DNA of 53,505 nucleotides from Actinomycetota bacterium (GTDB taxonomy: Bacteria; Actinomycetota; Acidimicrobiia; Acidimicrobiales; Ilumatobacteraceae). Position 1 is the first letter of the stretch. Each line of letters starts with the position of its first letter. The DNA is taken from NCBI GenBank assembly GCA_026393535.1, contig JAPKZY010000031.1:1-53505 (forward strand), written 5' to 3'. The notes beneath the pieces are model-generated. The model ran no database searches, was not told the origin of the DNA, and was given only the letters and a program-made list of their open reading frames with translations. Shown here one piece after another: positions 3,083 to 50,867 of the stretch. A program made the position numbers and the translations under genes.

Positions 3083-3088
3083 TAGCGT
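3083..3088 (+). promoter_or_regulatory. -10 element (TAGCGT) of galU
   Basis: TAGCGT lies 8 nt before the ATG at 3097, matching the TANNNT spacing seen at about 20 starts here. It suggests a leaderless or nearly leaderless galU mRNA and supports the ATG over the 49-codon upstream extension. Confidence 0.45.
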
Positions 3089-3096
3089 GGGATTTC

Positions 3097-3966
3097 ATGA
3101 GATCGCGTACCGCTGTTATTCCCGCCGCGGGCCTCGGGACCCGTTTCTATCCGGTCACAAAGGCCGTACCGAAGGAATTGTTGCCGATTGTGGATGTGCC
3201 TGTCCTACAGCTGGTGATGGACGAAGCGATTGCGGCGGGGGCTGAGCACATTGTGTTGGTGTCTCACGTGTCGAAGACTCCTGTTGAGGCGTACGTTGCG
3301 CCGTCGGCTGCCGTGATTGACAAGGTACGTGCCAGTGGGCGCGAGGAACTTGCGAACAGGTTGGCACGCATCGGTACTGATGTGCGCGTGAGTGTGGTGT
3401 ATCAAGATGCACCGCGCGGGCTTGGACATGCAGTGGGGTGCGCGCGTAGTGCAGTGGGCGATGAACCGTTCTCTGTGTTGTTGCCAGACGAAATTATGGG
3501 TGATGCAGTGTTGCTGAATGCGCTGGTTGATTCGTGTGAGAAAAAAGGTGTGGGCGCTGTTGGCCTGATGCGTGTGCCGATGGAACAGGTATCTGCATAT
3601 GGAGTGATTACGCCGTCGGCTACATCGCCTGATGAAGGGCCATACGACATTATTGATGTGGTGGAAAAACCTGCGCAAGCTGATGCGCCGAGCAACTTGA
3701 TCATTATTGGTCGCTACGTATTGACACCTGACGTGTTTGACGCCATTGATGCGTTGAAGCCACATGCAAACGGGGAACTGCAACTGACCGATGCGTTGCG
3801 TGCGCAGTCACAGCGTTCGCCGTTAACCGGCATGTTGAACCGTTCTCAGCGATGGGATACGGGCACGCCAATGGGTTGGCTGACTGCTGTTGTAGATATC
3901 GCCTTATCGCGACCTGACATTGAGCCAGGGTTTCGTGCGTGGCTAACGCAGCGCCTCGGCGACTAA
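3097..3966 (+). CDS. galU: UTP-glucose-1-phosphate uridylyltransferase
   Basis: Makes UDP-glucose from UTP and glucose-1-phosphate for cell-envelope glycans. The 289-residue protein starts MRSRTAVIPAAGLGTRF, the nucleotide-binding signature, followed by TKAVPKELLPIVDVP with the conserved lysine. It also has the LPDEI metal loop, DVVEKP and a GELQLTD region, all typical of bacterial GalU. Length is normal for the family. The ATG start is chosen because the signature begins at once and a TANNNT element sits 8 nt upstream. The neighbours (Ruc-like gene divergent, moeA downstream) match the mycobacterial order. The stop overlaps the convergent DUF1089-like gene by 4 nt. Confidence 0.93.
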   Translation: MRSRTAVIPAAGLGTRFYPVTKAVPKELLPIVDVPVLQLVMDEAIAAGAEHIVLVSHVSKTPVEAYVAPSAAVIDKVRASGREELANRLARIGTDVRVSVVYQDAPRGLGHAVGCARSAVGDEPFSVLLPDEIMGDAVLLNALVDSCEKKGVGAVGLMRVPMEQVSAYGVITPSATSPDEGPYDIIDVVEKPAQADAPSNLIIIGRYVLTPDVFDAIDALKPHANGELQLTDALRAQSQRSPLTGMLNRSQRWDTGTPMGWLTAVVDIALSRPDIEPGFRAWLTQRLGD

Positions 3967-4526
3967 TTATTGCGGTTACGACGAAACGTATTGTGCTCGT
4001 CGAGAACTAAACCAAATTCATCAACCGTTGCTGCGTGTTGATCGCCTGTGAGCAACGACGTGTATTCCCATGAGTGTTCATCATGACGTGTGTAGCGCTG
4101 CGGAGTTTTCACCACACCAAGAGTGTCAACGTTGATGGTGATTATCTGCAGATCAGCTGTGTGGCCAACGTGTAATGGCAGACGATGCGTGATGATGGAA
4201 TTGGTAAACGGAGTACCTGCAAAGTCGATATCAACACAGCCGTCAAGTTCGGTGCGATGCTCGCCATTCATTTCGCCCCATTGGCCATGACCGTCTGTTG
4301 CAAGCCATAAGTCGGGTTCTGGTAAATCACGAAACAACAACATCTGTTGCACCACCCACGAAGCAGACATACGAACAACGGCGACTGCTTTGTCAGCAAG
4401 CAATCCGATTTCTGCAGTCCAGCCTTCGTTTTCCCAACGCAAGTCAACAGAACTGCCAGGCGAGCCATCCCACCGAGTCCATGCGGCCTGATGCCCTGAA
4501 GCAGATGGGGCCTTGTACAACGACAT
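3963..4526 (-). CDS. Putative glycolipid-binding domain protein (DUF1089/PF06475-like)
   Basis: A 187-residue protein resembling the putative glycolipid-binding family: an N-terminal WENEGWTAEIGLL region, the hallmark LDGCVDIDFAGTPFTN followed by HRLPL, and a C-terminal QRYTRHDEHSWEYTSL plus FGLVLDEHNTFRRN. The biochemical role of this family is not established. The start MSLYKAPS is chosen over a 58-codon extension of unnatural composition; the hexamer TATACC, 6 nt upstream, weakly fits the local -10 pattern. It is inserted between galU and moeA, convergent with the first and divergent from the second. Confidence 0.62.
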   Translation of the reverse strand: MSLYKAPSASGHQAAWTRWDGSPGSSVDLRWENEGWTAEIGLLADKAVAVVRMSASWVVQQMLLFRDLPEPDLWLATDGHGQWGEMNGEHRTELDGCVDIDFAGTPFTNSIITHRLPLHVGHTADLQIITINVDTLGVVKTPQRYTRHDEHSWEYTSLLTGDQHAATVDEFGLVLDEHNTFRRNRNN

Positions 4527-4582
4527 GTAATAGGTATATCGCAGGAATGGGCTGAAAAGTGGTGGGTGGCTTCGTTCACAGG

Positions 4583-4588
4583 TACCGT
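4583..4588 (+). promoter_or_regulatory. -10 element (TACCGT) of moeA
   Basis: TACCGT is followed by 7 nt and then ATG at 4596. The spacing fits leaderless transcription and decides the start: ATG 4596 rather than the in-frame GTG at 4566. Confidence 0.5.
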
Positions 4589-4595
4589 TTCGCCC

Positions 4596-5700
4596 ATGAC
4601 TCCACTGCACGACGTTCGCGCCATGGTGCTGGCCCGTTGTTCGGTTGCCACCCCTGTGCGTGTTGCGCGTGCAGATGCAGCCAATTGCATTGTTGCGCAC
4701 GATGTCGTGGCCACTGAACAGGTGCCACCGTTTGCGAATACCGCGGTTGATGGTTATGCCGTGCGATCAGAAGATGTTGCAAATGTTCCTGTCGAGTTGC
4801 GAGTCATTGGTGAACTTGCTGCTGGGGCTGCACCCACTATTGCGGTGACTGCGGGTACTGCGATTCGCATTATGACGGGTGCACCAATTCCTGATGGTTG
4901 CGATTGCGTTGTGATGGTGGAAGATACCGAACGTGTTGGCACTGACGGCGTGAACATTCTGAAATCAGTTCCTGCTGGTGCTGCAATTCGCGCAGCAGGT
5001 TCTGATGTTGTTGTGGGTGCCACTGTGGTTACCGCTGGCATGCGTGTAACGCCGATGATTGAAGGCGTGCTTGCCAGTATCAATGCAACACATGTTGTGG
5101 TGTATCCGCGCGTAAAGGTGGGAGTCATTTCAACTGGTGATGAATTGGTGGATGATGGTTCGCCACTGGGTGCTGGGCAGATTCGTGAATCAAATCGCAC
5201 CATGCTTGTGCGCATTGTGGAAGAAGCTGGCGCAACAGCAATTGACCTTGGCATTATTCGTGACAATGAAGATGAACTGGAAGCTGCATTGCGCAGTGCA
5301 GTGAGTACTGGCGGATGCGACGCACTTGTAACAAGCGGTGGCGTCAGCATGGGCGACTACGACATTGTGAAAGCTGTGCTGTCACGTATTGCAGATATGA
5401 ACTGGGTGCAGGTTGCAATGAAGCCAGCGAAACCGTTTGCGTTTGGCACACTGTTGAATCCGGCTGGAGTATCGATTCCTATTTTTGGTTTGCCAGGAAA
5501 CTGATCGGGTGCATGCATCGTGGGGTTCTGATGGTCGAGTGCATGTCAGTCGCAAGAGTGAACAGAGCAGCCATCAGTTGGCTACAACGGCTGTTGCGAA
5601 CGCCCTGATGATGGTTCCAGATGGCAATGGGTTAACAGCAGGGGACAATGTGATGGTCACATTCCTTGGTGCTGATGCTGGGCCAACGGCTGCCCAGTAG
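4596..5700 (+). pseudogene. moeA: Molybdopterin molybdenumtransferase, interrupted by a frameshifting deletion
   Basis: MoeA inserts molybdate into adenylylated molybdopterin. The first 302 residues (4596-5504) are intact: VPPFANTAVDGYAVR, the GAGQIRESNR loop, TSGGVSMGDYDIV and the turn FGLPGN. The reading frame then ends at TGA (5502-5504) exactly where other MoeA proteins continue PVS. The missing C-terminal beta-barrel domain reappears in the +1 frame (about 5520-5697), with DGRVHVSRKSEQSSHQLA and ANALMMVPDG, ending at 5700. By family length about 45-50 codons are lost. This is either a real inactivating deletion or an assembly fault. The neighbours moaA and moaC still look functional, and the Mo-enzyme island in the same window would need a working MoeA. 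Confidence 0.82.
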
Positions 5701-5719
5701 TCACAGGTTGATTACTGCG

Positions 5720-5725
5720 TAGGAT
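5720..5725 (+). promoter_or_regulatory. -10 element (TAGGAT) of moaA
   Basis: TAGGAT, then 6 nt, then ATG at 5732. This is the local leaderless pattern, and it gives moaA its own promoter downstream of the broken moeA. Confidence 0.5.
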
Positions 5726-5731
5726 TGCCAT

Positions 5732-6730
5732 ATGGATCTTGTTGACAGCTTCGGACGTGTAGTGCGTGACCTGCGTATCTCTGTCACTGACCGCTGCAAT
5801 TTCCGTTGTACGTATTGCATGCCAGAAGAAGGCTTGAAGTGGCTAGACCGTTCTGAAGTACTGACATACGAAGAGATTGAACGTGTTGCTCGCATTTGTG
5901 TTGAACAATTCGGCGTTGATAGTTTGCGTTTGACTGGTGGGGAACCAACCGTGCGTGCACACCTGCCACAGCTCATTGCAAAGCTTGCAGCATTGCGTTT
6001 GCCTGATGGCACGAAGCCTGATATTGCTCTCACCACTAATGGTGCAACCTTGCGCAACGTCGCTGGTGAATTGCGTGATGCCGGCCTTGACCGCATCAAC
6101 GTAAGTCTTGACAGCCTGAAGCCAGAACGATTCTTTGCCATGACACGTCGTGATGAACTACACAATGTGCTGGCCGGAATTGCAGAAGCGCAAGTAGCTG
6201 GGTTTTCGCCAATGAAGGTGAACGCAGTTGTTGAGCGTGGCACCAATGACGACGAGATTCTTGATCTTGTTCGCTACGGCCGCGACAACAATGTCGAAGT
6301 GCGCTTTATTGAGTTCATGCCGCTTGATGCCACCAACGAATGGGAACGCAACAAGGTCGTGAGCCAAGATGAAATTGTTGCAACTATTGCAGCGGAGTTC
6401 CCACTCGAGATAATGCCGTCTCGCGGTGCAGCACCAGCAGATCGTTGGCGCTTCGTTGATGGCAAGGGAACTGTCGGTGTGATCCCTAGCGTCACGCATC
6501 CGTTCTGTGGTGATTGTGACCGCGTGCGGCTCACGTCAGACGGACAATTCCGCACATGCCTCTTTGCTACTGATGAATCCGACATCCGTGCGTTGTTACG
6601 CAATGGCGGCACTGATGCAGAAATTGCTGAACTGATTAAAATTGCTGTCGGGGCAAAATGGGCCGGACACCAAATCAATCAAGTGAATTTCATTCGGCCT
6701 AATCGGTCAATGAGCCAAATAGGCGGGTAA
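5732..6730 (+). CDS. moaA: GTP 3',8-cyclase, radical SAM
   Basis: The first enzyme of molybdopterin synthesis, converting GTP to 3',8-cyclo-GTP. The 332-residue protein has the N-terminal radical SAM cluster motif DRCNFRCTYC (Cys22, Cys26, Cys29), the SAM-binding LTGGEPT, and the C-terminal second cluster in HPFCGDCDRVRLT plus a later FRTC. It lacks the usual C-terminal GG tail in exact form but ends SQIGG, close to the activating di-glycine. Length and domain order are typical. It is followed after 4 nt by an enoyl-CoA hydratase, probably in one transcript. Confidence 0.95.
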   Translation: MDLVDSFGRVVRDLRISVTDRCNFRCTYCMPEEGLKWLDRSEVLTYEEIERVARICVEQFGVDSLRLTGGEPTVRAHLPQLIAKLAALRLPDGTKPDIALTTNGATLRNVAGELRDAGLDRINVSLDSLKPERFFAMTRRDELHNVLAGIAEAQVAGFSPMKVNAVVERGTNDDEILDLVRYGRDNNVEVRFIEFMPLDATNEWERNKVVSQDEIVATIAAEFPLEIMPSRGAAPADRWRFVDGKGTVGVIPSVTHPFCGDCDRVRLTSDGQFRTCLFATDESDIRALLRNGGTDAEIAELIKIAVGAKWAGHQINQVNFIRPNRSMSQIGG

Positions 6731-6734
6731 CCCC

Positions 6735-7972: not shown

Positions 7973-8031
7973 AGTAAATCCTTTCTAGGATCTGTCAAAT
8001 GCGATGTGTGCGGGAGTGCAAGATTTCGGCA

Positions 8032-8037
8032 TAACCT
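8032..8037 (+). promoter_or_regulatory. -10 element (TAACCT) of moaC
   Basis: TAACCT, then 6 nt (GACCAG), then ATG at 8044. It fits leaderless initiation; there is no purine-rich ribosome site between hexamer and start. Confidence 0.55.
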
Positions 8038-8523: not shown

Positions 8524-8702
8524 AATCCAATTACGACTTGTGAAAAAGGTTCTAATTGAGTATTTTTCCCAATTTCGAGCCAAAACTGCCTTTTTTGTTT
8601 GTATGTAAGGCCTCAAAGGTCGCAGTGCTGACAAAACCTCACTAGGCTTTCAGAAGTGTCTTTTGACGCCACCGTTCTCTACTCAAGGTAATTTTTTTCT
8701 AC
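8524..8702 (+). other. Intergenic region between moaC and the SepX-like gene
   Basis: This 179-nt stretch is AT-rich with several T runs, probably the moaC transcript end, and no open frame with a recognisable product. A possible promoter lies at its right end: TTGACG at 8663-8668 and TAATTT at 8689-8694, 8 nt before the ATG, although the 20-nt spacer is long. Confidence 0.35.
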
Positions 8703-9272
8703 ATGAGTCAACTTGTTCTTTTAATTGTCGGCGCAATGTGGATGGCAGTCTTGCTGCCTCCTCTTCTTCGCTCACGCTTTGATACTGGCGCAGTGTCGTC
8801 CGTGTCTGATTTTCGTCGTCAGTTGCACACGCTCCAGCGCTCACAAGCTCCAGGTACTCAATCGCCCATGCGCGCCATGGCTCGACCATTGTCGTCTCCT
8901 CGTCTCTCAGCCCCAATGGCTCGCCCGCAGGCTCAAGCACCTCGCCTGATAGCAAGCGACGGCGTTTTTGCCGCCGAGCCTCGCCACCGTCGCACTCACC
9001 ACACTGCTGAATTGCCTCGCACGCACTTTGCTGCCGAGACAGCCTTTATGTCATCTCGTGAAGTTGTGCGTCGTCGTCGCGTCAATGTTCTGTACGGAAT
9101 GGTGGCCGCTACTGGCATCTCATTGTTCCTTGGTCTCACCACCGGCAGTACAGCCATGCTGTACCTGTTCACGGTTTCATTCCTTGGTCTTGCGGCCTAC
9201 TGCTACATCCTTGTGCAGATCCGTAACCAGGAATACCTGCGCCGTTATTACGGCCAACGCCAAGCCGCATAA
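8703..9272 (+). CDS. SepX/GlpR-like actinobacterial divisome membrane protein (putative)
   Basis: 189 residues with an N-terminal membrane helix (residues 2-20, QLVLLIVGAMWMAVLLPPLL, followed by RSR). A Pro/Ser/Arg-rich cytoplasmic linker follows (about 25-120), then two C-terminal helices (about 129-150 and 152-172) and a basic tail. This layout, plus a location beside moaC/moeA/galU, matches SepX of Streptomyces and GlpR of Corynebacteriales, membrane proteins of the cell-division machinery; GlpR partners a MoeA-like protein called Glp. The primary sequence similarity is limited to the N-terminal helix and the general plan, so the call rests mainly on architecture and synteny. Confidence 0.55.
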   Translation: MSQLVLLIVGAMWMAVLLPPLLRSRFDTGAVSSVSDFRRQLHTLQRSQAPGTQSPMRAMARPLSSPRLSAPMARPQAQAPRLIASDGVFAAEPRHRRTHHTAELPRTHFAAETAFMSSREVVRRRRVNVLYGMVAATGISLFLGLTTGSTAMLYLFTVSFLGLAAYCYILVQIRNQEYLRRYYGQRQAA

Positions 9273-11261: not shown

Positions 11262-11292
11262 ACCTTACCTAATGGGTCTGTCACTTTGTCAA
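11262..11292 (-). promoter_or_regulatory. Promoter of the DUF433 gene (TTGACA ... TAAGGT)
   Basis: On the minus strand a TTGACA hexamer (11287-11292) and TAAGGT (11262-11267) are separated by 19 nt. An alternative TAGGTA gives 15 nt. TAAGGT is 6 nt before the ATG, the leaderless spacing. It is one of few sites here with a clear -35 box. Confidence 0.45.
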
Positions 11293-12527: not shown

Positions 12528-15053
12528 TTATGCCTTTAGTGCATCAGCAACGATGTCTGCTTCACGACGGCGAAGACCCGTATTGACGCGTTGACGCTCA
12601 AGGACTTGATCAAGCGTCTTGCTGGCCTGTGCGATGGGATGTTCGGAGAAGAACGACTGGATATCTATTTCCATTGCATCTGAGTTCAACGTAGACGTTG
12701 CGCTTGCCATACGAATGATGGTGTTGCCAGGGAATGCATCATTTGCGTGCTGCCAGTTCTGACGAACAAAGTTCCATGCCTGTTCTCCGTGCTTACGGTT
12801 TGCAATACAACGATTCAGCAAGAACGGGGCATTCTGAGTCTTTACTTCACTGGTGAGTGCGAAATCACATGTGCGGGCGATCAGCCCGGCACTGTCAAAC
12901 TCGGCAAGTGCGTACAGCATGCGAATTTGTTCTTGTGGTGTCGATGGGTCGCGGTAACGACCAAGGAACCATTCGTAATCTGTGGCATCGCCAGTAGCTG
13001 CCACCACGTTTGTTGCAGCAGCGACAAGTTCTGGTTCAGTGACGGTGTCGTTGAACAAGATGTCACGGCATTGGCGCTGTGCATCGGCATCTTTTCCATA
13101 GATGGCCAAAAGTTGAACAATGAGGCCACGTAGTTTTGCTACTAAATCTTCCTCGCCAATTACTGGCTTCCATCCGAAGTGGGCGAGTGCAGGAGTAACC
13201 AACGTCTTGACGAAAGATGCAAATGCAGGCTCTGATTCTGTTGGCACAATGCGTGACAACGACTTGAGTGATGCTGCAATTGTTTGCCACACAGCAAGGT
13301 CACGTTCGTTTACGAAGCCCTGCAGGAATGTGATGTAGGCATCTGAACCCATGGCGCCCGCAACGACGGCGTTCCATGCATCGTCAACCAAGTTGTAGCG
13401 CTCGAGAGTGTCGAGCGAAGACAATGTTGACCCAGTGATACGCAGCAAGAGGTCCGCTGAGTATTCAACGCGGAAGAATCCTGGGCCGTTGGCGTTAACC
13501 ACAATTGTGGCTGTGGTGTCTGAGAGTGGGATACGCATTTCGTCTGTCTCAAGCAGAACCTTGCTCGTTGCATTGCCGATTCGCACGTGGATGGGTACAA
13601 CCCACAATGTGGCATCAGGGCTGTTGTCGAAGGTGAACTGACGTTGAGACAGCACCAATTCTTTTCCGTCAATGCGTACTGATATCAATGGGTATCCGGC
13701 TTGCCAGATCCATGAGTCCATCAGGCGTCGTACCGGCACGATAGGGCCACCATCAGTGGTGACGACATGCTCAATTGCATCCCACAGGTCATTGGTCTCT
13801 GTGTTGCCGTATGCGTGAGTCTTCAAATAGTGGCTAACACCTGCGCGAAACCTGTCGGGCCCAATGTATTGCTCGAGCATGCGCAAGATGGCGCCGCCCT
13901 TTTGATACGTGAGTACATCGAACATGCCATCTGCATCAGCAGGGGAGTTAACGGGAAACTCGATGGTGCGCGTTGAGTGCAACGAGTCAACATCGAAAGC
14001 GGCACTGCGGTCAAGACCAAATGTGGTCCATAGTTGCCACTGCGGCATGAATGCATCGCATGCTGCATATTCCATAAATGTTGCAAATGCTTCGTTCAGC
14101 CAGATGCCATTCCACCAACGCATGGTGACAAGGTCACCGAACCACATGTGTGCAAGTTCATGGGCTACAACTAGCGCAACAAGTTCTTGTTCGACTTGTG
14201 TTGATGTTTCAGGGTCAACCAGCAGTAGCACTTCACGGAACGTGATGCATCCGACGTTCTCCATTGCACCAGCAGCAAAGTCTGGCAGTGCAAGAAGATC
14301 TACCTTGTCGCTTGGGTAGGGAACTCCGTAGTAGGTCTGAAACCAATCAAGGGCAAAGGTGCCGGCGCGCATACCGAATTCGGTGAGGTGCGATTTTCCG
14401 GGCACATGAATGATGCGCACTGCGATGTCGCCCACCATTTCTGTTGCGGTTGCCTCTAATTGCCCAACAACAAACGCCACTAAATAAGTGGACATGATCA
14501 TGGTGTCTGCAAACCAAATACGTGTGAGGCCATTTGCAAGAACTTCACGTTTTGTTTCGCTGCTATTTGACACAGCAAGGAACTCACTCTTGATTGTGAG
14601 GTCAATAGCGAACACGGCTTTGAAATCAGGCTCATCGAAGCAGGGGAATGCACGGCGGCAATCGGTGGATTGCATTTGAGTAGTGGCAATGGTGCGAACA
14701 ACACCAGAGTCGTCAGTAAATGTTGACCGGTAAAAGCCACGCAACTTGTCGTTCAGAATGCCAATGAATGAAATTGCGATGTCACAAGGGCCTTGCGCAA
14801 CGTCTGCACTAATAATGAGGCGCTCTGATTCTTCATGCAATGTGAACGAGGCAGCGGTGCCATTGACGGTGACCGATGCAATCTCTAGTTCAATCGCATT
14901 AACAACAATTTCGGATACTGCTTCTGTTGCCTGAGCAGAGATGAGAACAGTGCCCGTAAATGACGCTGCATCAAGATCTGGGGTCAGAGACACCTCGTAG
15001 CGCGAAGGCATAACGGTGCGGGGGAGGCGAAAGGGATTATTAAGGTGGCTCAC
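12528..15053 (-). CDS. pepN: Aminopeptidase N, M1 family zinc metallopeptidase
   Basis: Removes N-terminal amino acids from peptides in the cytoplasm. The 841-residue protein has the exopeptidase motif GAMEN (residues 262-266) and the zinc site HELAH (His298, Glu299, His302) with Glu321 in NEAF 18 residues later. The C-terminal ERAP1-like helical domain is full length, ending near residue 835. Size is typical of actinobacterial PepN. It starts with GTG, and a TAACCT element 7 nt upstream suggests a leaderless message. It is divergent from the PfkB kinase, with 46 nt between the starts. Confidence 0.95.
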   Translation of the reverse strand: MSHLNNPFRLPRTVMPSRYEVSLTPDLDAASFTGTVLISAQATEAVSEIVVNAIELEIASVTVNGTAASFTLHEESERLIISADVAQGPCDIAISFIGILNDKLRGFYRSTFTDDSGVVRTIATTQMQSTDCRRAFPCFDEPDFKAVFAIDLTIKSEFLAVSNSSETKREVLANGLTRIWFADTMIMSTYLVAFVVGQLEATATEMVGDIAVRIIHVPGKSHLTEFGMRAGTFALDWFQTYYGVPYPSDKVDLLALPDFAAGAMENVGCITFREVLLLVDPETSTQVEQELVALVVAHELAHMWFGDLVTMRWWNGIWLNEAFATFMEYAACDAFMPQWQLWTTFGLDRSAAFDVDSLHSTRTIEFPVNSPADADGMFDVLTYQKGGAILRMLEQYIGPDRFRAGVSHYLKTHAYGNTETNDLWDAIEHVVTTDGGPIVPVRRLMDSWIWQAGYPLISVRIDGKELVLSQRQFTFDNSPDATLWVVPIHVRIGNATSKVLLETDEMRIPLSDTTATIVVNANGPGFFRVEYSADLLLRITGSTLSSLDTLERYNLVDDAWNAVVAGAMGSDAYITFLQGFVNERDLAVWQTIAASLKSLSRIVPTESEPAFASFVKTLVTPALAHFGWKPVIGEEDLVAKLRGLIVQLLAIYGKDADAQRQCRDILFNDTVTEPELVAAATNVVAATGDATDYEWFLGRYRDPSTPQEQIRMLYALAEFDSAGLIARTCDFALTSEVKTQNAPFLLNRCIANRKHGEQAWNFVRQNWQHANDAFPGNTIIRMASATSTLNSDAMEIDIQSFFSEHPIAQASKTLDQVLERQRVNTGLRRREADIVADALKA

Positions 15054-15060
15054 CCAATAA

Positions 15061-15066
15061 AGGTTA
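15061..15066 (-). promoter_or_regulatory. -10 element (TAACCT) of pepN
   Basis: On the minus strand TAACCT, then 7 nt, then the GTG start at 15053. It fits the leaderless pattern and confirms the GTG start. Confidence 0.55.
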
Positions 15067-15085
15067 GTGGGGCGGCCACTGCGAC

Positions 15086-15091
15086 TACCGT
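15086..15091 (+). promoter_or_regulatory. -10 element (TACCGT) of the PfkB kinase gene
   Basis: TACCGT, then 8 nt, then GTG at 15100. It lies 20 nt from the divergent pepN -10 element, so the two promoters are nearly back to back. Confidence 0.45.
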
Positions 15092-15099
15092 AGAGAACC

Positions 15100-16140
15100 G
15101 TGCCACGTAGTCATCCTTTCACCGCCCATATTCCTTCTCTCACCAATAAAGAGGGAATTCTGTACGACGTTGTCGGGGTGGGCAATGCTCTTGTTGACAT
15201 GATTGCCATGGTTGATGACGCTTTTCTTGCCTCACACGACATGGTGAAGGGTTCGATGGCCCTTATAGAAACAGATAGAGCTGTTCAGTTATCGACTGCG
15301 GTCGGTGCCAGCACACGAACCAGTGGGGGTTCGGGTGCAAACACAATTGCTGGGATTGCAAGCCTTGGCGGAGACGTTGCGTTTATTGGCAAGGTTGCCA
15401 ACGATGAATTCGGCGATGTTTTCGCAACTGACATGAAAACTGTTGGTGTTGATTTCCGTAGCGGAGCACCAGACTCTTCAGTGCCAACAGGACGTTGCAT
15501 TATTGCGGTCACACCTGATGCGCAGCGCACGATGAACACATTCCTCGGCATTTCTACTCAGTTATCTTTCTCAGACCTTGATGCGGACATTATTTCTGCA
15601 GGTGCAGTGTTGTATCTCGAGGGGTACTTGTTCGATCGTGATGAAGCAAAAGATGCATTCCGCCAAGCTGCAGCAGTTGCGCACGCGCATGGCCGAGTGG
15701 TTTCTTTGACATTGTCCGACTCGTTCTGTGTTGATCGCCATCGTGCAGATTTCCAATCATTGGTGCGCAGCGACATTGACATCTTGTTTGCCAATGAGGA
15801 TGAGTTGAAGTCTCTCTATGAGACAGCGGATTTTGATGAAGCAGTAGAACTCTTGCGTCGTGATTGCCACATTGCTGCTATCACGCGCAGTGAAAAAGGA
15901 TCAGTTGTGGTGACTCGCGATGACATTCACACAGTTCCTGCAGCGCCAGTTGCAAGTGTGGTGGACACCACTGGTGCTGGTGACCTCTTTGCTGCCGGGT
16001 TCTTGCGTGGATTGACGCAGGGCAAAGACCTCACCAGTTGTGCTCGCATTGGCGCCATTGCCGCCGCAGAAGTGATTTCACACGTTGGCCCACGGCCATT
16101 GGTGTCATTGTCGTCTCTGTTGCCAGCTGATTTGCAGTAA
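15100..16140 (+). CDS. PfkB-family carbohydrate/adenosine kinase
   Basis: A 346-residue ribokinase-fold enzyme that phosphorylates a sugar or nucleoside. It has the N-terminal DVVGVGNALVDMIA, the substrate loop TSGGSGANTIAGIASLGG, and the C-terminal PfkB signature DTTGAGDLFAAGFLRG with its catalytic aspartate. The N-terminal phrase and the GGSGANT loop are closest to bacterial adenosine kinase-like proteins, so adenosine or a related nucleoside is a likely substrate. The GTG start adds about 20 poorly conserved residues, so an internal start is possible, but the TACCGT element fits the GTG. queF follows after 19 nt. Confidence 0.88.
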   Translation: MPRSHPFTAHIPSLTNKEGILYDVVGVGNALVDMIAMVDDAFLASHDMVKGSMALIETDRAVQLSTAVGASTRTSGGSGANTIAGIASLGGDVAFIGKVANDEFGDVFATDMKTVGVDFRSGAPDSSVPTGRCIIAVTPDAQRTMNTFLGISTQLSFSDLDADIISAGAVLYLEGYLFDRDEAKDAFRQAAAVAHAHGRVVSLTLSDSFCVDRHRADFQSLVRSDIDILFANEDELKSLYETADFDEAVELLRRDCHIAAITRSEKGSVVVTRDDIHTVPAAPVASVVDTTGAGDLFAAGFLRGLTQGKDLTSCARIGAIAAAEVISHVGPRPLVSLSSLLPADLQ

Positions 16141-16146: not shown

Positions 16147-16152
16147 TAGCCT
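16147..16152 (+). promoter_or_regulatory. -10 element (TAGCCT) of queF
   Basis: TAGCCT, then 7 nt, then ATG at 16160. It selects this ATG rather than the out-of-frame ATG 5 nt earlier. Confidence 0.5.
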
Positions 16153-17344: not shown

Positions 17345-17350
17345 ACCGTA
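17345..17350 (-). promoter_or_regulatory. -10 element (TACGGT) of the minus-strand enoyl-CoA hydratase
   Basis: TACGGT on the minus strand, then 6 nt, then ATG at 17338. This is leaderless spacing. Confidence 0.45.
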
Positions 17351-20031: not shown

Positions 20032-20037
20032 TAGCAT
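20032..20037 (+). promoter_or_regulatory. -10 element (TAGCAT) of the secreted protease gene
   Basis: TAGCAT, then 8 nt of mostly T, then GTG at 20046. No ribosome site is present, which suggests a leaderless message. Confidence 0.45.
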
Positions 20038-25174: not shown

Positions 25175-25180
25175 TAGCCT
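25175..25180 (+). promoter_or_regulatory. -10 element (TAGCCT) of the NlpC/P60 gene
   Basis: TAGCCT, then 7 nt, then ATG at 25188. It is packed into the 19-nt gap between the divergent mocA and NlpC/P60 starts. Confidence 0.5.
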
Positions 25181-27001: not shown

Positions 27002-28121
27002 GATTAATGACCTTAGTCAGTTGCTCGAGGGCATCAAGAGAATGACCCTCCACGAAGTCATCAACATACGGCAGCGCAGCTGCCATTCCTCGGGCAAGTG
27101 GGGCATATCCCGGCGTGACTTTCAGTGGGTTCACCCACACAATGCGAAATGCGACACGATGAAGGCGTTCCATTTGTTCGGCCAACACGATGGGGTCTCC
27201 GCGATCCCAACCATCGGACAACACCACAACGATTGCCCCACGGGCCATTCCGCGAACGCCCCATTCGTTATTGAATAATCGCAATGTCTCTCCGAGGCGT
27301 GTTCCACCGCTCCAGTCACGCACATTTTCACCTGCGGCACGTAATGCACGATCAGGATCTTTTGAAGAAAGTTCTCGCGTAATGCGGGTGAGTCGAGTGC
27401 CCAATGTGAACGCCTCAACACGCTGGCGACCGGCAACGCCTGCATGAACGAACCGAACAAGCGCACGTGCATACGGCTCCATCGAGCCACTGATGTCGAG
27501 AAGGAACACAATGCGTCGTGGCTTGTCACCTTTTTCTACCCAATGACGGCGCATCGGCTCTCCGCTTGCAGCAAGAGACGCACGTACGGTTGCGCGCATG
27601 TCTGGGCGCTTTCCACGTGAACGAGTTGGCTTCATGCGCAGTGATGGGCGAGGAGGGCCAGCAACGCGCAATGACTGCATGAACATTTGTGCTTGTTGCA
27701 TCTCGTCATTCGAGTAATCAGCAAAGTCTTTGTCACGCAAAGTTTCAACGCCAGAGAATCGCAACGTGATGGTTGGGTCGTCTGATGCATCAGCGTTTCC
27801 GTCTGCACTGCCTTCCTCTTCATCAGAGTCCAGAGCAAGTGTGACCTTCAGTTGTTCCTCTTCGTCAGCGTCTACTGATTCTCGATGTTCCCAAAAAACA
27901 TTGAATGCTTTGTCAAACATTGCAATGTCTTCAGGACGTCGTACCAGAGTGGTGCGACCAGCCCAGTACACAGAATCGCGGTCTTCGATACCGACTAATG
28001 ACAGCGCGTTGATAAAAGTCAGAACAGAATCAAGTGGCGTTGCAATATCGAGACGGCGAAGAACGCGTGCGAATCCGACTGCGAGTCGGTCAGGGTTTGA
28101 CTCAACCGTGAAGGAGGCCAC
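26994..28121 (-). CDS. coxE: CoxE, von Willebrand factor A domain protein
   Basis: About 375 residues with a C-terminal VWA domain: RRIVFLLDISGSMEPYARAL (DxSxS metal site), TLGTRLTRITREL, DWSGGTRLGETLRLF and VVVLSDGWDRGDP. The N-terminal half is acidic in the middle (DADEEEQLKVTLALDSDEEE). CoxE works with the CoxD ATPase in maturing the copper or molybdenum site of CO dehydrogenase-type enzymes. The GTG start at 28121 lies inside the coxD gene, overlapping it by 20 nt. Confidence 0.9.
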   Translation of the reverse strand: MASFTVESNPDRLAVGFARVLRRLDIATPLDSVLTFINALSLVGIEDRDSVYWAGRTTLVRRPEDIAMFDKAFNVFWEHRESVDADEEEQLKVTLALDSDEEEGSADGNADASDDPTITLRFSGVETLRDKDFADYSNDEMQQAQMFMQSLRVAGPPRPSLRMKPTRSRGKRPDMRATVRASLAASGEPMRRHWVEKGDKPRRIVFLLDISGSMEPYARALVRFVHAGVAGRQRVEAFTLGTRLTRITRELSSKDPDRALRAAGENVRDWSGGTRLGETLRLFNNEWGVRGMARGAIVVVLSDGWDRGDPIVLAEQMERLHRVAFRIVWVNPLKVTPGYAPLARGMAAALPYVDDFVEGHSLDALEQLTKVINHA

Positions 28122-29031: not shown

Positions 29032-29037
29032 AGCGTA
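29032..29037 (-). promoter_or_regulatory. -10 element (TACGCT) of coxD
   Basis: TACGCT on the minus strand, then 6 nt, then the GTG start of coxD at 29025. It indicates a promoter inside the island between the flavin oxidoreductase gene and coxD. Confidence 0.45.
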
Positions 29038-30500: not shown

Positions 30501-30506
30501 TACTGT
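30501..30506 (+). promoter_or_regulatory. -10 element (TACTGT) of the SDR gene
   Basis: TACTGT, then 6 nt, then ATG at 30513. It supports this start over a 48-codon upstream extension. Confidence 0.45.
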
Positions 30507-30512: not shown

Positions 30513-31259
30513 ATGGAACTTGGACTAACAGGAAAAACAGCAGCAGTAGCGGCCGGAACTGCCGGATTGGGCCTTGGCACCGCCAAGGCGCTTGCAGTTG
30601 ACGGTGTGCGCGTTCTTGTATGTGGTCGCGATGAGAATCGCTTACAGAAGGCGCTTGTCGAAATTGGCCATGGGGCTATCGGATTTGTGTGCGATGTGTC
30701 CACTGATGTTGGTGGACGAGAGTTTGCAGAACGAGCTATTGCAATGCTCGGGTCTGTTGACATTCTTGTCGCCAATGGCGGCGGTCCGCCTCCTGGTGGT
30801 TTTGCCCAGACCCCTGAAGCGCAATATTTGGAAGCATTGCAAAAGAACTTACTCAGCGTTGTTGCAATGTGTCAGGTAGCAGTTCCGCCCATGCGTGAAC
30901 GCGGGTGGGGTCGCGTGCTTGCCATTACATCTGTTGCAGTGCGCCAGCCAATGAACAACCTGATCTTGTCAAATACGGCTCGTGCAGGTGTTACGGGGTT
31001 CTTGAAGACTCTTGCGCGCGAAGTTGCTGGCGACGGCGTCACTGTGAACTCCATTCAGCCAGGAACACATGCCACTGATCGCATCACGCAGTTGTACGGA
31101 GCAAACCCCGATGTCAAAGCGATGGGCATACCAGCTGGTGTCATGGGTGATGCAGATGACTTCGGCCGAATCGGAGCGTTCATGTGTAGTGATTCTGCAA
31201 AGTTCATGACTGGTGTGCAGTTGCACATTGATGGCGGTTCATACGCCGGTTTGCTATAG
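30513..31259 (+). CDS. Short-chain dehydrogenase/reductase, atypical catalytic motif
   Basis: 248 residues with the NAD(P)-binding turn AGTAGLGLGTAKALA, CDVSTDVG, NGGGPPPGGF in place of NNAG, a serine in ITSVAVRQPM and the C-terminal MTGVQLHIDGGSY. The usual YxxxK is replaced by SNTARAG, so Tyr and Lys are not at their usual positions. This matches a known divergent SDR subgroup with LSNxxRAG, annotated as oxoacyl reductase-like but not shown to be one. It forms a small plus-strand pair with the Dabb gene inside the cox island. Confidence 0.87.
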   Translation: MELGLTGKTAAVAAGTAGLGLGTAKALAVDGVRVLVCGRDENRLQKALVEIGHGAIGFVCDVSTDVGGREFAERAIAMLGSVDILVANGGGPPPGGFAQTPEAQYLEALQKNLLSVVAMCQVAVPPMRERGWGRVLAITSVAVRQPMNNLILSNTARAGVTGFLKTLAREVAGDGVTVNSIQPGTHATDRITQLYGANPDVKAMGIPAGVMGDADDFGRIGAFMCSDSAKFMTGVQLHIDGGSYAGLL

Positions 31260-31262
31260 GTT
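31257..31262 (+). promoter_or_regulatory. -10 element (TAGGTT) of the Dabb gene, fused to the SDR stop codon
   Basis: The SDR stop codon TAG (31257-31259) forms the first half of TAGGTT, which is 6 nt before the Dabb ATG at 31269. Confidence 0.4.
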
Positions 31263-35856: not shown

Positions 35857-38592
<2,736 letters not shown>

Positions 38593-39510: not shown

Positions 39511-39516
39511 ACCTTA
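39511..39516 (-). promoter_or_regulatory. -10 element (TAAGGT) of the SurA-like gene, fused to the mfd stop codon
   Basis: The mfd stop TAA (39516-39514) is the first half of TAAGGT on the minus strand; 6 nt later comes the GTG start at 39504. Confidence 0.5.
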
Positions 39517-43514: not shown

Positions 43515-43582
43515 GTCGCCTTGTCGGGAAGCCGATCGGCGCAACATGGTGTAAAAGTAAGAAACGACCCGCGAGTCGCGAC

Positions 43583-44229: not shown

Positions 44230-44235
44230 AGTCTA
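44230..44235 (-). promoter_or_regulatory. -10 element (TAGACT) of rplY
   Basis: TAGACT on the minus strand, then 8 nt, then GTG at 44221. This gives rplY-pth a promoter separate from prs. Confidence 0.45.
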
Positions 44236-45319: not shown

Positions 45320-45325
45320 ATGGTA
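45320..45325 (-). promoter_or_regulatory. -10 element (TACCAT) of prs
   Basis: TACCAT on the minus strand, then 8 nt, then ATG at 45311. It favours this start over the ATG five codons downstream. Confidence 0.4.
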
Positions 45326-46158: not shown

Positions 46159-46185
46159 TTCGTGGCTCGACTGCTTGTCATTTTG

Positions 46186-46256: not shown

Positions 46257-46319
46257 CCGTGCGCAATACGGTATCGGGATTTTTGTTTTCGTCATTGTCC
46301 CGATAGGTTCATATGCCTT

Positions 46320-46412
46320 ATGAGTTCGCTGATCAAGAAGCGCCGCAAGCGCATGCGCAAGAAGAAGCACAAAAAAATGCTTCGTCGCACACGCCACCAG
46401 CGTCGCAAATAA
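46320..46412 (+). CDS. Small ribosomal subunit protein bS22 (AURKAIP1/COX24-like)
   Basis: A 30-residue, extremely basic protein: MSSLIKKRRKRMRKKKHKKM followed by LRRTRHQRRK. This matches the tiny actinobacterial protein bS22 seen in mycobacterial ribosomes, related to the mitochondrial AURKAIP1/mS38 family. It is easily missed by gene callers because of its size. A TAGGTT element lies 10 nt upstream. Orientation is opposite to the neighbours ispE and tRNA-Gln. Confidence 0.88.
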   Translation: MSSLIKKRRKRMRKKKHKKMLRRTRHQRRK

Positions 46413-46448
46413 ACATTTCTAACTAGAAGTCCGTTACTTCTCGGTCCC

Positions 46449-47177: not shown

Positions 47178-48004
47178 TTGTGACTGTCTTCCAGAATGTG
47201 TGCAAGCCGCAGCCAGTCGTGAACGGAAAGTTCTTCTGCGCGTGCCGTTGGAGCAATGTTTGCTGCCTCAAAGTGATGCGCTTCCACACTGCCGGCTAAA
47301 GAACCACGCAACATCTTGCGTCGCTTTGCAAAGCCCATTCGGACCAGTGCAAAGAGTTTTGCTTTGTCAACAGATGCATCGAGCGGGGTAGTGCGGCGTG
47401 TGATTTCCACTAATGATGATTCAACATTGGGTCGCGGTAAAAACACAGATGCTGGAACTTGTCCGACAACACGCGCTGTTGCATAGAACGCAACTTTCAC
47501 GCTGAGTGCGCCGTATGCGCTGGTGGAAGGTGAGGCAGCAAATCGGTCAGCAACTTCTTTTTGCACCATCACCAACATGCGTGACACCTGCGGAACAAAG
47601 TCAAGAACGTCAGCAATTAGTGGGGTAGCAACGTTGTACGGAAGGTTTGCAACCAACACCCAGTCGGTGTGTTCGCCAAGAAGTGCCGGCCAATCGAGTT
47701 GCATGGCATCGGCGTGAACCACTGTGACATTGGCAAGCTCGCCAACGTTTTCATTAAGAAGTGGCAACAGTGCTTCATCAACTTCTATGGCAGTGACGCC
47801 AGTAGCAACTTCAGCTAGTGCAAGAGTGAGTGATCCGAGACCAGCGCCAATTTCTAAAACATGCGGGTGATTTTCAACGTCTGCAAGGCGCGCAATGCGT
47901 CGCACGGTATTTGCATCAACAACAAAGTTTTGCCCCAGCGCGCGCTTCGCGCGTAAACCAGCACCATCTAATTGGTGTGAAGCATCAGTGCGTGAAAGCG
48001 TCAC
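47174..48004 (-). CDS. rsmA: 16S rRNA dimethyladenosine transferase
   Basis: Dimethylates two adenosines near the 3' end of 16S rRNA. The 276-residue protein has RAKRALGQNFVVDANTVRRI, the SAM site VLEIGAGLGSLTLALAE, the catalytic VANLPYNVATPL and VQKEVADRFAASPST, all typical of KsgA/RsmA. Length is normal. It is followed by ispE and preceded by the RlpA-like gene, with 4-nt overlaps on both sides, so the three are co-translated. Confidence 0.96.
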   Translation of the reverse strand: MTLSRTDASHQLDGAGLRAKRALGQNFVVDANTVRRIARLADVENHPHVLEIGAGLGSLTLALAEVATGVTAIEVDEALLPLLNENVGELANVTVVHADAMQLDWPALLGEHTDWVLVANLPYNVATPLIADVLDFVPQVSRMLVMVQKEVADRFAASPSTSAYGALSVKVAFYATARVVGQVPASVFLPRPNVESSLVEITRRTTPLDASVDKAKLFALVRMGFAKRRKMLRGSLAGSVEAHHFEAANIAPTARAEELSVHDWLRLAHILEDSHK

Positions 48005-48507
48005 CAGGTCAGCTCCACTGGAAGTGGTGCATCAACGAGTTCAGCGATTGCTTCGAACACCGCGGTATTCAATGTGATGTCAAACGAGCCAGACATGGGG
48101 CCGATATTGATGTTGATGCAAGTGGCTTTTCGTCCATTGTTCAAATTCAAGACAGTGATGGTGGCTCCAAGCGGAACAAGAGTGGTTGAGCAACCGTTCT
48201 TCACTGAATCTGGCAAACGTTTGTAGGTGGCATTGCCGCGCACCATGCGACCTGAGTTGTCAGCGGGGTACGCAATCTGACCTTGCCCATTTGGGTCAGC
48301 ACTGACAGGGCCATCAAGGTTGGCAGGAGCATCAACATTTGAATCAAGTCCGAGGCCAAGGTCGTAGGTAGTAGACGTGACATCTGCGACCGTTGTGACA
48401 GTTTCATTGCCAGAGTTCCCCGATGCCATAAATGCCACGGCAAGGAAAATGGCTGTGGCAACCATGGCCACCGTCATGCGGTTCTTGTCGACGGGAGAGA
48501 TATCCAT
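48001..48507 (-). CDS. Membrane-anchored RlpA-like double-psi beta-barrel protein
   Basis: 168 residues with one N-terminal membrane helix (about 11-28, MTVAMVATAIFLAVAFMA), a low-complexity linker and a C-terminal double-psi beta-barrel region: NATYKRLPDSVKNGCSTTLV, then LGATITVLNLNNGRKATC and INIGPMSGSFDITLN. The pattern matches RlpA-like domains found in peptidoglycan-acting proteins. Its position between tatD and rsmA is where rpfB (a resuscitation-promoting factor) lies in mycobacteria, so it may be a functional substitute. The tatD stop is 4 nt away. Confidence 0.75.
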   Translation of the reverse strand: MDISPVDKNRMTVAMVATAIFLAVAFMASGNSGNETVTTVADVTSTTYDLGLGLDSNVDAPANLDGPVSADPNGQGQIAYPADNSGRMVRGNATYKRLPDSVKNGCSTTLVPLGATITVLNLNNGRKATCININIGPMSGSFDITLNTAVFEAIAELVDAPLPVELTW

Positions 48508-48511
48508 GTGC

Positions 48512-49288
48512 CTACGAATGTATGCGAGGAAATGCTGCGAGAGCATTCGCCGAGGTAATTGATGCAAACTCAGCCACATCGAGTCCACGAAGATCTGCAA
48601 TGGCGGTGCCAACAAGTCCAACGTGGGCTGGCTCGTTAGGGCGACCTCTGTGCGGAATCGGTGCCAAGAACGGGCTGTCTGTTTCGATGAGAATTTTGTC
48701 GAGAGGGCACAGCAACGCGGCCTCTCGTAGTTCATGTGCGGTCTTGAAAGTCACGATTCCGCTAAATGACAAATAGGCACCACGATTAAGACATTCTTGG
48801 GCCTCATTTGGGCCGCCAGAAAAGCAATGAATGATGGTGTTCTGGGGCATTCCCTCTGCATCTAGTACCGCATAGGTGTCATCCCATGCGTCGCGTGTGT
48901 GGATTACCAACGTGAGGTCATGTTGTTTTGCAAGTGCAATCTGTTCTGCAAAGACGCGCATCTGAACATCACGTGGAGAATGTTCGTAGTAGTAATCAAG
49001 CCCGCATTCACCAATGGCAACTACGCGTGGTTGAGAGATGTACGGAAGTATTGATTCTGTGCCTTGCGTTGCGTCGTGTGGGTGTAGTCCCACTGTTGCC
49101 CACACATCGTCGTGTTGCGATGCAATAGCGATTGCTTGCTCACACGTCGGAGCATCGGTGCCGATAACTACGAAGCGTTCGACTCCGGCATCGCGGGCTC
49201 GTTGCAAACTTTCGGCAGGCACTGAAGTCATTTTGTCGTCGTGGATATGACAGTGCGTATCTGTCCACCCGGTGATAGCGGTGCTCAT
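48512..49288 (-). CDS. tatD: TatD-family DNase
   Basis: A 258-residue metal-dependent hydrolase of the TatD family: GWTDTHCHIHDDKM (metal His pair), WATVGLHPHDA, AIGECGLDYYY with the bridging Glu, FAEQIALAKQHDLTLVIHTRDA, IIHCFSGGPNEAQE and LIETDSPFLAP. Complete and of normal length. It shares a 4-nt overlap with metG upstream and is followed by the RlpA-like gene. Confidence 0.95.
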   Translation of the reverse strand: MSTAITGWTDTHCHIHDDKMTSVPAESLQRARDAGVERFVVIGTDAPTCEQAIAIASQHDDVWATVGLHPHDATQGTESILPYISQPRVVAIGECGLDYYYEHSPRDVQMRVFAEQIALAKQHDLTLVIHTRDAWDDTYAVLDAEGMPQNTIIHCFSGGPNEAQECLNRGAYLSFSGIVTFKTAHELREAALLCPLDKILIETDSPFLAPIPHRGRPNEPAHVGLVGTAIADLRGLDVAEFASITSANALAAFPRIHS

Positions 49289-50793
49289 GCGATGGTGCGT
49301 CGAGGAAAGAGCGGTGTTCCTTTTTCAACAGGAGAGCCGGCGCGGTATAGGCCCCACGCAGTATCGACAGGAATGCGACATTGTTCAATGTCTGTTGTCA
49401 TTCCGATGCGACGCCAAATTTCACGAGCAGTGTCGGGAATGGCGGGGAATGCAAGAAGAGTCACGATGCGTAAAGCCTCGAGTGCATCGCCCATCACAGT
49501 GTTCAGCTGATCGCTTGGCTCTGCTTTCCATGGTTCATGATTCTCAAGATGTGCATTGGTGGCGCGAATGAGAGACCATGTTGCTTCAAGTGCGCGACTT
49601 GGCTGCACTAATTGCCAGCATGCAGACGTTTCGGCAACGGCATCTTTGGCTGATGCAGCCAATGGGCTATCTGGGTTTGGTGCGGTGCCAAGACCAGCAC
49701 ACTTTTTGTCAACAACAGACGCAATACGTGCTGCAAGGTTGCCGAGGTTGTTTGCAAGGTCAGAGTTGTAACGAGAGACAAGGCCTTCGTATGTGAAGTC
49801 TCCGTCATTGCCGTATGACGTATCACTAAGTACGTAATAACGGAAACCATCAACACCGAATTCGTCAACGAGATCAAGTGGGTTCACCACATTGCCAGAT
49901 GTCTTTGACATCTTTTCTCCGCCAACAAGCAGCCAGCCGCCGACTGCATAACCAGTTGGTGGTTCAATGCCCGCTGACATCAACATGGCAGGCCAGTACA
50001 CATTGTGAAAGCGAATGATGTCTTTTCCGATGAGATGGTGATCAACGGGCCACCATTTGTTGAACATTTCAGCGTCAGAGCCGTAACCGATTGCGGTGAT
50101 GTAGTTAGCAAGTGCGTCAAACCACACATAGGCAACGTGTGATGGGTCGAACGGAAGGGGAATTCCCCATGTCAGAGTTTTTCTGCTGACAGAAAAATCT
50201 TGAAGTCCTTGTTTGATGAATCCGAGAACTTCGTTGACACGGTGTTCCGGCACTACAGCGCTCGGGTGTGATGAATACCAATCAATGAGGCGTTGTTCAA
50301 AGCGTGACAAGCGGAAGAAGTAGTTCTCTTCTTCAACATGTTGTACGGGGCGTTTGTGGATGGGGCAGTTTTCCCCGTCAAGGTCATCTTCTGTGTAATA
50401 GGCCTCACAGGGAACGCAGTACAAACCGCTGTATTTGTCGAGTTCGATGTCGCCTGCATCAAAACACGCCTGCAATAACTTCTGCACGCCAACTTTGTGG
50501 CGAGCTTCCGTGGTACGAATGAAGTCATCATTCGAGATATTCAGTCGTTGCCATGCTTGTTGAAACAGGGGCGCTATGGAATCGGTGAATTCTTGTGGGG
50601 AAGTGCCAGCAGCTTCTGCAGCTTGTTGAATCTTGAGACCGTGCTCGTCTGTTCCAGTGAGGAAATGCACATCGTCACCAAGAAGACGATGCCACCTAGC
50701 TAATGCGTCAGCGACAATGGTCGTATACGCGTGACCAAGATGTGGTTGCGCGTTGACGTAATAGATCGGAGTGGTGAGGTAGTACTTTGCCAC
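49285..50793 (-). CDS. metG: Methionyl-tRNA synthetase
   Basis: A 502-residue class I synthetase. It has YYLTTPIYYVNAQPHLGHAYT (HIGH motif as HLGH), TGTDEHGLKIQQA, zinc-binding YCVPCEAYYTEDDL and CPIHKRP, WFDALANY, and the KMSKS loop GGEKMSKTSGN. It is the short form without the C-terminal tRNA-binding domain. The GTG start is supported by the TAGCCT element 6 nt upstream. It heads the metG-tatD-RlpA-rsmA-ispE gene string. Confidence 0.97.
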   Translation of the reverse strand: MAKYYLTTPIYYVNAQPHLGHAYTTIVADALARWHRLLGDDVHFLTGTDEHGLKIQQAAEAAGTSPQEFTDSIAPLFQQAWQRLNISNDDFIRTTEARHKVGVQKLLQACFDAGDIELDKYSGLYCVPCEAYYTEDDLDGENCPIHKRPVQHVEEENYFFRLSRFEQRLIDWYSSHPSAVVPEHRVNEVLGFIKQGLQDFSVSRKTLTWGIPLPFDPSHVAYVWFDALANYITAIGYGSDAEMFNKWWPVDHHLIGKDIIRFHNVYWPAMLMSAGIEPPTGYAVGGWLLVGGEKMSKTSGNVVNPLDLVDEFGVDGFRYYVLSDTSYGNDGDFTYEGLVSRYNSDLANNLGNLAARIASVVDKKCAGLGTAPNPDSPLAASAKDAVAETSACWQLVQPSRALEATWSLIRATNAHLENHEPWKAEPSDQLNTVMGDALEALRIVTLLAFPAIPDTAREIWRRIGMTTDIEQCRIPVDTAWGLYRAGSPVEKGTPLFPRRTIA

Positions 50794-50799
50794 CTAGAC

Positions 50800-50805
50800 A
50801 GGCTA
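50800..50805 (-). promoter_or_regulatory. -10 element (TAGCCT) of metG
   Basis: TAGCCT on the minus strand, then 6 nt, then GTG at 50793. It is 50 nt from the divergent thioesterase promoter. Confidence 0.5.
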
Positions 50806-50854
50806 CGCCACCACGCTTCTTGTCGTCGGTTCGTTTATTGCGACATTTACTTCG

Positions 50855-50860
50855 TAACCT
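50855..50860 (+). promoter_or_regulatory. -10 element (TAACCT) of the thioesterase gene
   Basis: TAACCT, then 7 nt, then ATG at 50868. It selects this ATG over the 27-codon upstream extension. Confidence 0.5.
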
Positions 50861-50867
50861 CGTACAG

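Follow-up and report, generated by a model that had tools for sequence, protein, structure and literature searches.

Leaderless genes with TANNNT −10 boxes, some of them fused with stop codons, predicted in an uncultured lineage of Acidimicrobiia

Why do so many start codons in a single actinobacterial contig follow the hexamer TANNNT at a nearly fixed distance? The question is raised by a stretch of 53,505 nt from a member of the Ilumatobacteraceae (contig JAPKZY010000031.1 of assembly GCA_026393535.1, hereafter the window), in which a first-pass annotation had listed 20 genes with TANNNT placed 6-8 nt before an ATG or GTG start codon and had interpreted them as leaderless; all 20 starts were found as listed. 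The answer that we hold to be highly probable is sigma-A-type leaderless transcription from TANNNT −10 boxes, with initiation on a 5'-terminal ATG or GTG of the mRNA. According to this model, TANNNT would serve housekeeping promoters of the sigma-A type as their −10 element, and its spacing of 6-9 nt (mostly 6-7 nt) would make RNA polymerase begin transcription on the first base (A or G) of the start codon or beside it. The resulting mRNA would have no 5' untranslated region (UTR), and the ribosome would initiate directly on its 5'-terminal AUG or GUG, with such genes operating alongside ordinary Shine-Dalgarno (SD) genes. The leaderless interpretation is favored because six lines of evidence agree, namely the spacing, the background level of SD sequences, the lack of TTG starts, the preference for divergent genes, the conservation in orthologues and the negative controls.

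The window is contig 59 of 113 in a genome of 1.96 Mb (estimated 94% complete, GC content about 51-52%), and we infer that its host is a freshwater Ilumatobacteraceae-type member of the Acidimicrobiia. The window and 20 further stretches of this genome make up a sample of 433 kb with 415 genes, 409 of which have 60 nt of upstream sequence. Starts were assigned by a motif-blind caller, which uses only coding potential and a start-codon prior and ignores the upstream sequence. At these blind starts, the distances of 6, 7, 8 and 9 nt to the start codon have 51, 35, 15 and 14 occurrences of TANNNT, and those of 3-5 nt have none; from 12 nt upward the mean is 2.3 per position, and no position exceeds the 8 at 24 nt. 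The range of 6, 7 or 8 nt given by the first-pass annotation lies within the peak, which also includes 9 nt (14/409). The count of distances against shuffled upstream sequence that the same annotation had proposed gave 101 of the 409 genes with TANNNT at 6-8 nt, compared with a mean of 13.2 (standard deviation 3.4, maximum 26) in 200 dinucleotide shuffles. The peak is independent of the start caller, since it is reproduced by the starts of the longest open reading frames (51, 23, 16 and 16 at 6-9 nt; 407 genes). No peak is seen before 408 random internal in-frame DTG codons (0, 1, 0 and 1 at 6-9 nt). A whole-genome count made without annotation yielded 316 occurrences of TANNNT-N6-ATG vs 165 of TANNNT-N12-ATG (N6 was counted in the own genome and N12 in five genomes). 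The pattern read backwards, at face value, shows no excess (425 for N6, 431 for N12); as this is another motif, the count was set aside.

After subtraction of background, the strict excess corresponds to 26% of the genes in the 433 kb. A mixture model, in which starts of the 415 genes are free to move, assigns 43% of them to a −10 class, 31% to an SD class and 25% to neither. The predicted share of leaderless genes is at least about 26% by the strict motif, and perhaps 43% by the mixture model. TAGCCT and TAACCT, which had been pointed out as recurrent hexamers, do recur (7 and 7 of 114 hexamer genes), and TACCGT (13), TACGGT (10) and TAGCGT (8) are commoner. The middle of the hexamer is 73% GC at 6-9 nt vs 62% in other upstream TANNNT of the same genome, and in two low-GC genomes it is near background (0.26 vs 0.24 and 0.30 vs 0.28); this GC enrichment is a small effect of modest weight.

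Conservation was assessed with orthologues from loci within the genus and nearby (25 genome sets), for which we required a match within the first 20 residues, at least 45% identity, sufficient upstream sequence and an in-frame start. TANNNT at 6-9 nt is retained in 166 of the 195 orthologues of hexamer-bearing window genes, whereas decoy spacings match in 7-13 of 195, and among orthologues of hexamer-free window genes it is present in 3/199. The identity of single alignment columns was computed for 112 pairs of 45-88% protein identity that were not selected for matches; orthologues of at least 88% identity and the pth site were additionally left out. The successive hexamer columns are identical in 79 (T), 83 (A), 52, 66, 80 (the three N) and 87% (T) of the pairs, and the flanking columns mostly in 37-60%, with raised values also at −4 to −2 (70, 61 and 65%) and at −27 (66%). 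In hexamer-free genes (114 pairs), identity is raised to 60-72% in columns −11 to −8 relative to the start codon, where an SD sequence would lie. ATG and GTG are exchanged in 11 of the 112 pairs with the alignment kept, and TTG occurs in one. The enoyl-CoA hydratase gene has three orthologues with a displaced start codon and a hexamer that has not moved.

Genomes for comparison shared with the present one its genus, family, order, class or phylum. Three of them, represented by one or two stretches apiece, were merged as a single family pool. The loci of relatives used were L021 and L023-L027; L022 was left out, its contig being equal in length to that of G136, which the set already contained. 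The excess of TANNNT recurs in all 13 of the other class pools, at 7.6-23.3% of genes, which are rough percentages from small samples of 50-87 genes each. Five genomes represent other parts of the phylum (56-66 genes each); three show an excess of 6%, 14% and 9.5%, and two show none. These two, G085 and G071, have TANNNT at 6-9 nt in 1/56 and 2/63 genes with no peak, and the leaderless habit seems, as judged from these sequences, to be lost or absent in some lineages of the phylum. The negative control consisted of 22 loci out of 80, which we take to belong to the order Bacillales; all lie around eno and hence sample similar genes. Their 324 genes show no peak, with counts of 4, 2, 1 and 0 at 6-9 nt vs 8.8 per position at greater distances.

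At some gene junctions the hexamer overlaps the end of the preceding gene. With refined starts, 12 of the 70 strict hexamers of same-strand genes in the 433 kb coincide with the upstream stop codon, while no other offset between −40 and +20 accounts for more than 3. With blind starts, such coincidences number 10/58 in the own genome, 11/33 in genus members, 12/79 in the 13 class pools, 1/14 in the phylum genomes and 0/6 in Bacillales. This enrichment is partly expected, as a TAA or TAG stop provides the TA for free, and it is the T at position 6, together with its conservation, that constitutes the selected part. With refined starts, TAA or TAG followed by NNT is present at 12 of the 15 junctions whose gap is 9-12 nt, vs 32/289 for all TAA/TAG stops. 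At blind starts, T occupies position 6 in 10/13 TAA/TAG junctions with this gap, vs 3/54 where the gap has another length between 3 and 54 nt (p = 3e-7), and in the class pools in 12/20 vs 13/67 (p = 0.001); the corresponding counts are 11/17 in genus members, 1/5 in phylum genomes and 0/2 in Bacillales. The window has three fused junctions, mazG-eno (TAGCAT), mfd-PPIase (TAAGGT) and SDR-Dabb (TAGGTT). In a looser orthologue set (E <= 1e-8, the two genes sharing a locus), the fusion is kept in 9/13, 16/20 and 5/9 of the respective orthologous junctions. Nine of the 12 unfused ones nevertheless have TANNNT 6-8 nt before the start (eno 3, PPIase 4, Dabb 2); the misses are L023 at eno and both L023 and L024 at Dabb, and a decoy spacing matches in 1/12.

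We consider it likely, from these sequence patterns, that the Acidimicrobiia possess a recurrent and conserved operon-junction design, in which an upstream TAA or TAG stop is fused with the −10 box of a downstream leaderless promoter, so that stop, box and start are packed into ~15 nt. Some downstream genes of tight clusters would then have a leaderless promoter of their own, the upstream stop codon often supplying the TA of its −10 box; cluster genes could be transcribed independently without a UTR, and promoter selection would act both on the choice of the stop, TAA/TAG rather than TGA, and on the third base behind it. The competing explanation for these junctions is that TA merely belongs to the upstream stop and that the downstream gene is translated by termination-reinitiation. 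It draws on the short gap of 9-12 nt, on the TAA/TAG stops and on the fact that reinitiation at close stop/start pairs is already known in the part of the literature available to us. The frequency of T at position 6, which is high at these junctions and low at other gaps, speaks against it. Furthermore, since the hexamer outlives the fusion at the unfused orthologous junctions, its function appears to be independent of the stop codon, which makes reinitiation less likely and the fusion design more likely; we regard reinitiation as improbable. If the fusion is real, gene junctions can give rise to promoters for next to no cost in sequence, and the choice of a stop codon can be a matter of promoters. 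No report of a stop/−10 fusion was found among the literature matches listed, whose coverage is partial and which are weak evidence of absence.

A second alternative takes UANNNU as a translation signal at the RNA level, for example a contact site for S1 or the ribosome, within a leadered mRNA. The hexamer does lie near the start, where the SD sequence is normally located, and Nakagawa et al., in the portion of their paper at hand, treat U-rich sites for S1 near −10 in phyla that include the Actinobacteria. The distribution of SD sequences agrees with either explanation. An SD match of at least 4 nt is present in 16/114 hexamer genes (shifted background 16-20%) vs 102/295 other genes (background 13-19%; Fisher p 3e-5), and one of at least 5 nt in 3/114 (background 4-5%) vs 46/295 (background 3-4%; Fisher p 1e-4). 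The SD sequence is at background level in hexamer genes, as the first-pass annotation had observed for most of them; its companion claim, that hexamer-free genes do have one, stands as a tendency and is too strong as worded, as many of these genes also lack it and those having it form a minority. The 16S gene contains the anti-SD sequence GGATCACCTCCTT, so SD initiation coexists with the hexamer genes; loss of the SD machinery was considered and rejected on the same ground.

The arrangement of genes favors a promoter over a translation signal. The hexamer precedes 51 of 132 divergently placed genes vs 9 of the 106 same-strand genes whose gap is at most 5 nt (p = 7e-8), a preference that fits a promoter and not a translation signal. 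The mixture model likewise gives divergent genes a mean leaderless probability of 59% and genes in 4-nt overlaps one of 23%, and SD matches of at least 5 nt have no such contrast (12/132 divergent and 13/106 tight same-strand genes). The start codons of hexamer genes are 90 ATG, 24 GTG and 0 TTG, compared with 220, 61 and 14 in the 295 others (p = 0.014 for TTG). The absence of TTG and of hexamers at 3-5 nt both count against an RNA-level signal, as does the agreement of the hexamer with the mapped actinobacterial −10 element in sequence and distance, so far as the consulted parts of the mapping papers describe it. This alternative is, in our judgment, very unlikely. Chance matches combined with freedom in the choice of starts have a negligible probability as the source of the site set as a whole, because, even though TANNNT is short and decoy spacings match about 2-10% of genes when starts are flexible, chance would not produce the excess over shuffles, the same peak at longest-open-reading-frame starts, its absence at internal DTG codons and in Bacillales and the conservation in orthologues; single sites such as pth may still be due to chance.

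Several observations weigh against the leaderless interpretation. First, no clear TTG or TTGAC peak that could represent a −35 element was found 15-19 nt upstream in 113 aligned sites. Second, the genes left in neither class by the mixture model mean that SD and leaderless initiation do not cover all starts. Third, avoidance of spurious internal leaderless starts was examined and rejected as incoherent, internal in-frame TANNNT being scarcer at 6 nt and not at 7 nt: before internal ATG/GTG it occurs 2/2 times at 6 nt, 9/10 at 7 nt and 1/0 at 8 nt in the own genome, and 3/3, 13/18 and 3/2 times in eight pools. Fourth, three of the 24 window sites given below (8703, 27001 and pth) are weakly conserved. 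Finally, the start of the polymerase at the start codon and the use of the 5'-terminal codon by the ribosome are both deduced from sequence.

The proposed system is of a known kind, occurring here in an uncultured lineage of Acidimicrobiia, with the stop-codon/−10 fusion as its less ordinary feature. The following comparisons refer to those parts of the cited papers that were available. TANNNT-led leaderless genes were predicted in Actinobacteria for about 20% of genes by Zheng et al. 2011 (PMC3160421), the first T of TANNNT lying about 12 bp before the start, as in our case. The present genome differs from that description in having 51% GC and a fairly GC-rich middle of TANNNT, and the name 'Acidimicrobium' is absent from the accessible main text of that study. 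Leaderless transcriptomes have been mapped in Mycobacterium tuberculosis (PMC3898074), M. smegmatis (PMC6448022), Corynebacterium glutamicum (PMC3890552) and Streptomyces lividans (PMC8079986). They share with our genes the TANNNT −10 element and the ATG/GTG starts, at a leaderless share of 17-33%, including 26% of genes with a primary transcription start site (TSS) in M. tuberculosis (PMC3898074) and 33% of mRNAs in C. glutamicum (PMC3890552). The density of sites had been called notable, which holds only in part: the 26% stands at the top of the class range, above the 13 other pools, and is similar to these two TSS-based shares. The use of ATG and GTG in leaderless genes is about 79/21% in C. 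glutamicum (PMC3890552) and 79/21% here (90 and 24 of 114). In the TSS maps of S. lividans the hexamer lies on average 6.3 nt before the TSS (PMC8079986), no −35 consensus was found in M. tuberculosis either (PMC3898074), and in mycobacteria a 5'-terminal ATG or GTG suffices for initiation (PMC4633059). In the mapped species the 5' ends were measured, whereas the leaderless genes described here are predicted from sequence.

The rplY gene is of leaderless type here (14/18 orthologues), whereas the available text on M. tuberculosis (PMC3898074) reports no leaderless ribosomal protein gene, and the sorting of gene classes into the leaderless mode may differ between lineages. The metG gene provides no such contrast, as leaderless genes make up half of those tRNA synthetase genes that have a primary TSS in M. 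tuberculosis (PMC3898074). Leaderless promoter patterns are already used for the choice of starts by GeneMarkS-2 and StartLink (PMC9581028), a study that predicts leaderless transcription in 21.6% of bacterial species and names Actinobacteria as a clade rich in leaderless genes; the part of it that we could consult has nothing on the Acidimicrobiia lineage or on stop codons as promoter parts. Among the literature matches listed, which give partial coverage and weak evidence of absence, there is no report of leaderless transcription in the Acidimicrobiia/Ilumatobacteraceae lineage. Our analysis would extend actinobacterial leaderless transcription to this uncultured lineage, in which the hexamer offers a practical rule for the correction of start codons.

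Within the window, 57 genes were called with starts allowed to move, and 24 of them have TANNNT at 6-9 nt (17/57 at blind starts). Beyond the 20 starts listed before, the hexamer was found at four genes, those starting at 8703 (8 nt), 27001 on the minus strand (8 nt), 48507 on the minus strand (9 nt) and 43547 on the minus strand (6 nt). The 24 sites, with the number of orthologues that keep the hexamer, are as follows.

3083..3088, plus strand: TAGCGT, 8 nt before galU ATG 3097; 1/1 orthologue
4583..4588, plus strand: TACCGT, 7 nt before moeA ATG 4596; 4/4
5720..5725, plus strand: TAGGAT, 6 nt before moaA ATG 5732; 5/5, with ATG/GTG exchanged
8032..8037, plus strand: TAACCT, 6 nt before moaC ATG 8044; 6/6
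8689..8694, plus strand: TAATTT, 8 nt before ATG 8703 of a gene with no Pfam match; 3/6, 1 at the aligned start, a weak site
11262..11267, minus strand: TAAGGT, 6 nt before DUF433 (Pfam-checked) ATG 11255; 3/3
15061..15066, minus strand: TAACCT, 7 nt before pepN GTG 15053; 14/14
15086..15091, plus strand: TACCGT, 8 nt before PfkB-family kinase GTG 15100; 14/14
16147..16152, plus strand: TAGCCT, 7 nt before queF-like ATG 16160; 14/14
17345..17350, minus strand: TACGGT, 6 nt before enoyl-CoA hydratase ATG 17338; 8/8, 5 at the aligned start
20032..20037, plus strand: TAGCAT, 8 nt before S8 protease GTG 20046; 5/5, 2 at the aligned start
25175..25180, plus strand: TAGCCT, 7 nt before NlpC/P60 ATG 25188; 3/3, 2 at the aligned start
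27010..27015, minus strand: TAAGGT, 8 nt before XdhC/CoxI-family ATG 27001; 3/7, first T different in 4
29032..29037, minus strand: TACGCT, 6 nt before GTG 29025 of an AAA ATPase gene (Pfam AAA; named coxD before); 7/7
30501..30506, plus strand: TACTGT, 6 nt before SDR ATG 30513; 9/9
31257..31262, plus strand: TAGGTT, 6 nt before Dabb ATG 31269, TAG being the SDR stop codon; 6/6
37145..37150, minus strand: TAGCAT, 7 nt before eno ATG 37137, TAG being the mazG stop codon; 12/13
39511..39516, minus strand: TAAGGT, 6 nt before PPIase (SurA-like) GTG 39504, TAA being the mfd stop codon; 13/13
43554..43559, minus strand: TACTTT, 6 nt before pth ATG 43547; 4/18, perhaps chance
44230..44235, minus strand: TAGACT, 8 nt before rplY GTG 44221; 14/18
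45320..45325, minus strand: TACCAT, 8 nt before prs ATG 45311; 9/11
48517..48522, minus strand: TACATT, 9 nt before ATG 48507 of a gene with no Pfam match; 3/4
50800..50805, minus strand: TAGCCT, 6 nt before metG GTG 50793; 3/3
50855..50860, plus strand: TAACCT, 7 nt before acyl-CoA thioesterase ATG 50868; 3/3

Relative to the motif-blind caller, the starts of galU, pepN, the S8 protease, the PPIase, DUF433 and prs are shifted. Gene names were checked by NCBIfam and Pfam: moaA, eno, bL25 and mfd pass the curated NCBIfam cut-offs, galU, moeA, pepN and the PfkB kinase are below the NCBIfam equivalog cut-offs and bear family-level labels, and the gene called SurA-like carries a PPIC-type rotamase domain. 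In the region 4596-5760, the reading frame of moeA is cut short after GLPGN by a stop at 5504, and sequence resembling the C-terminal part of moeA runs on in a different frame to ~5700; the break is a deletion, a frameshift or an assembly fault. The pepN gene (minus strand) and the PfkB kinase gene (plus strand) are divergent, with 46 nt between their start codons (15053-15100) and both hexamers inside this gap, and the pepN orthologue in L209 (G150:C8:1809-4283) has one in-frame TGA.

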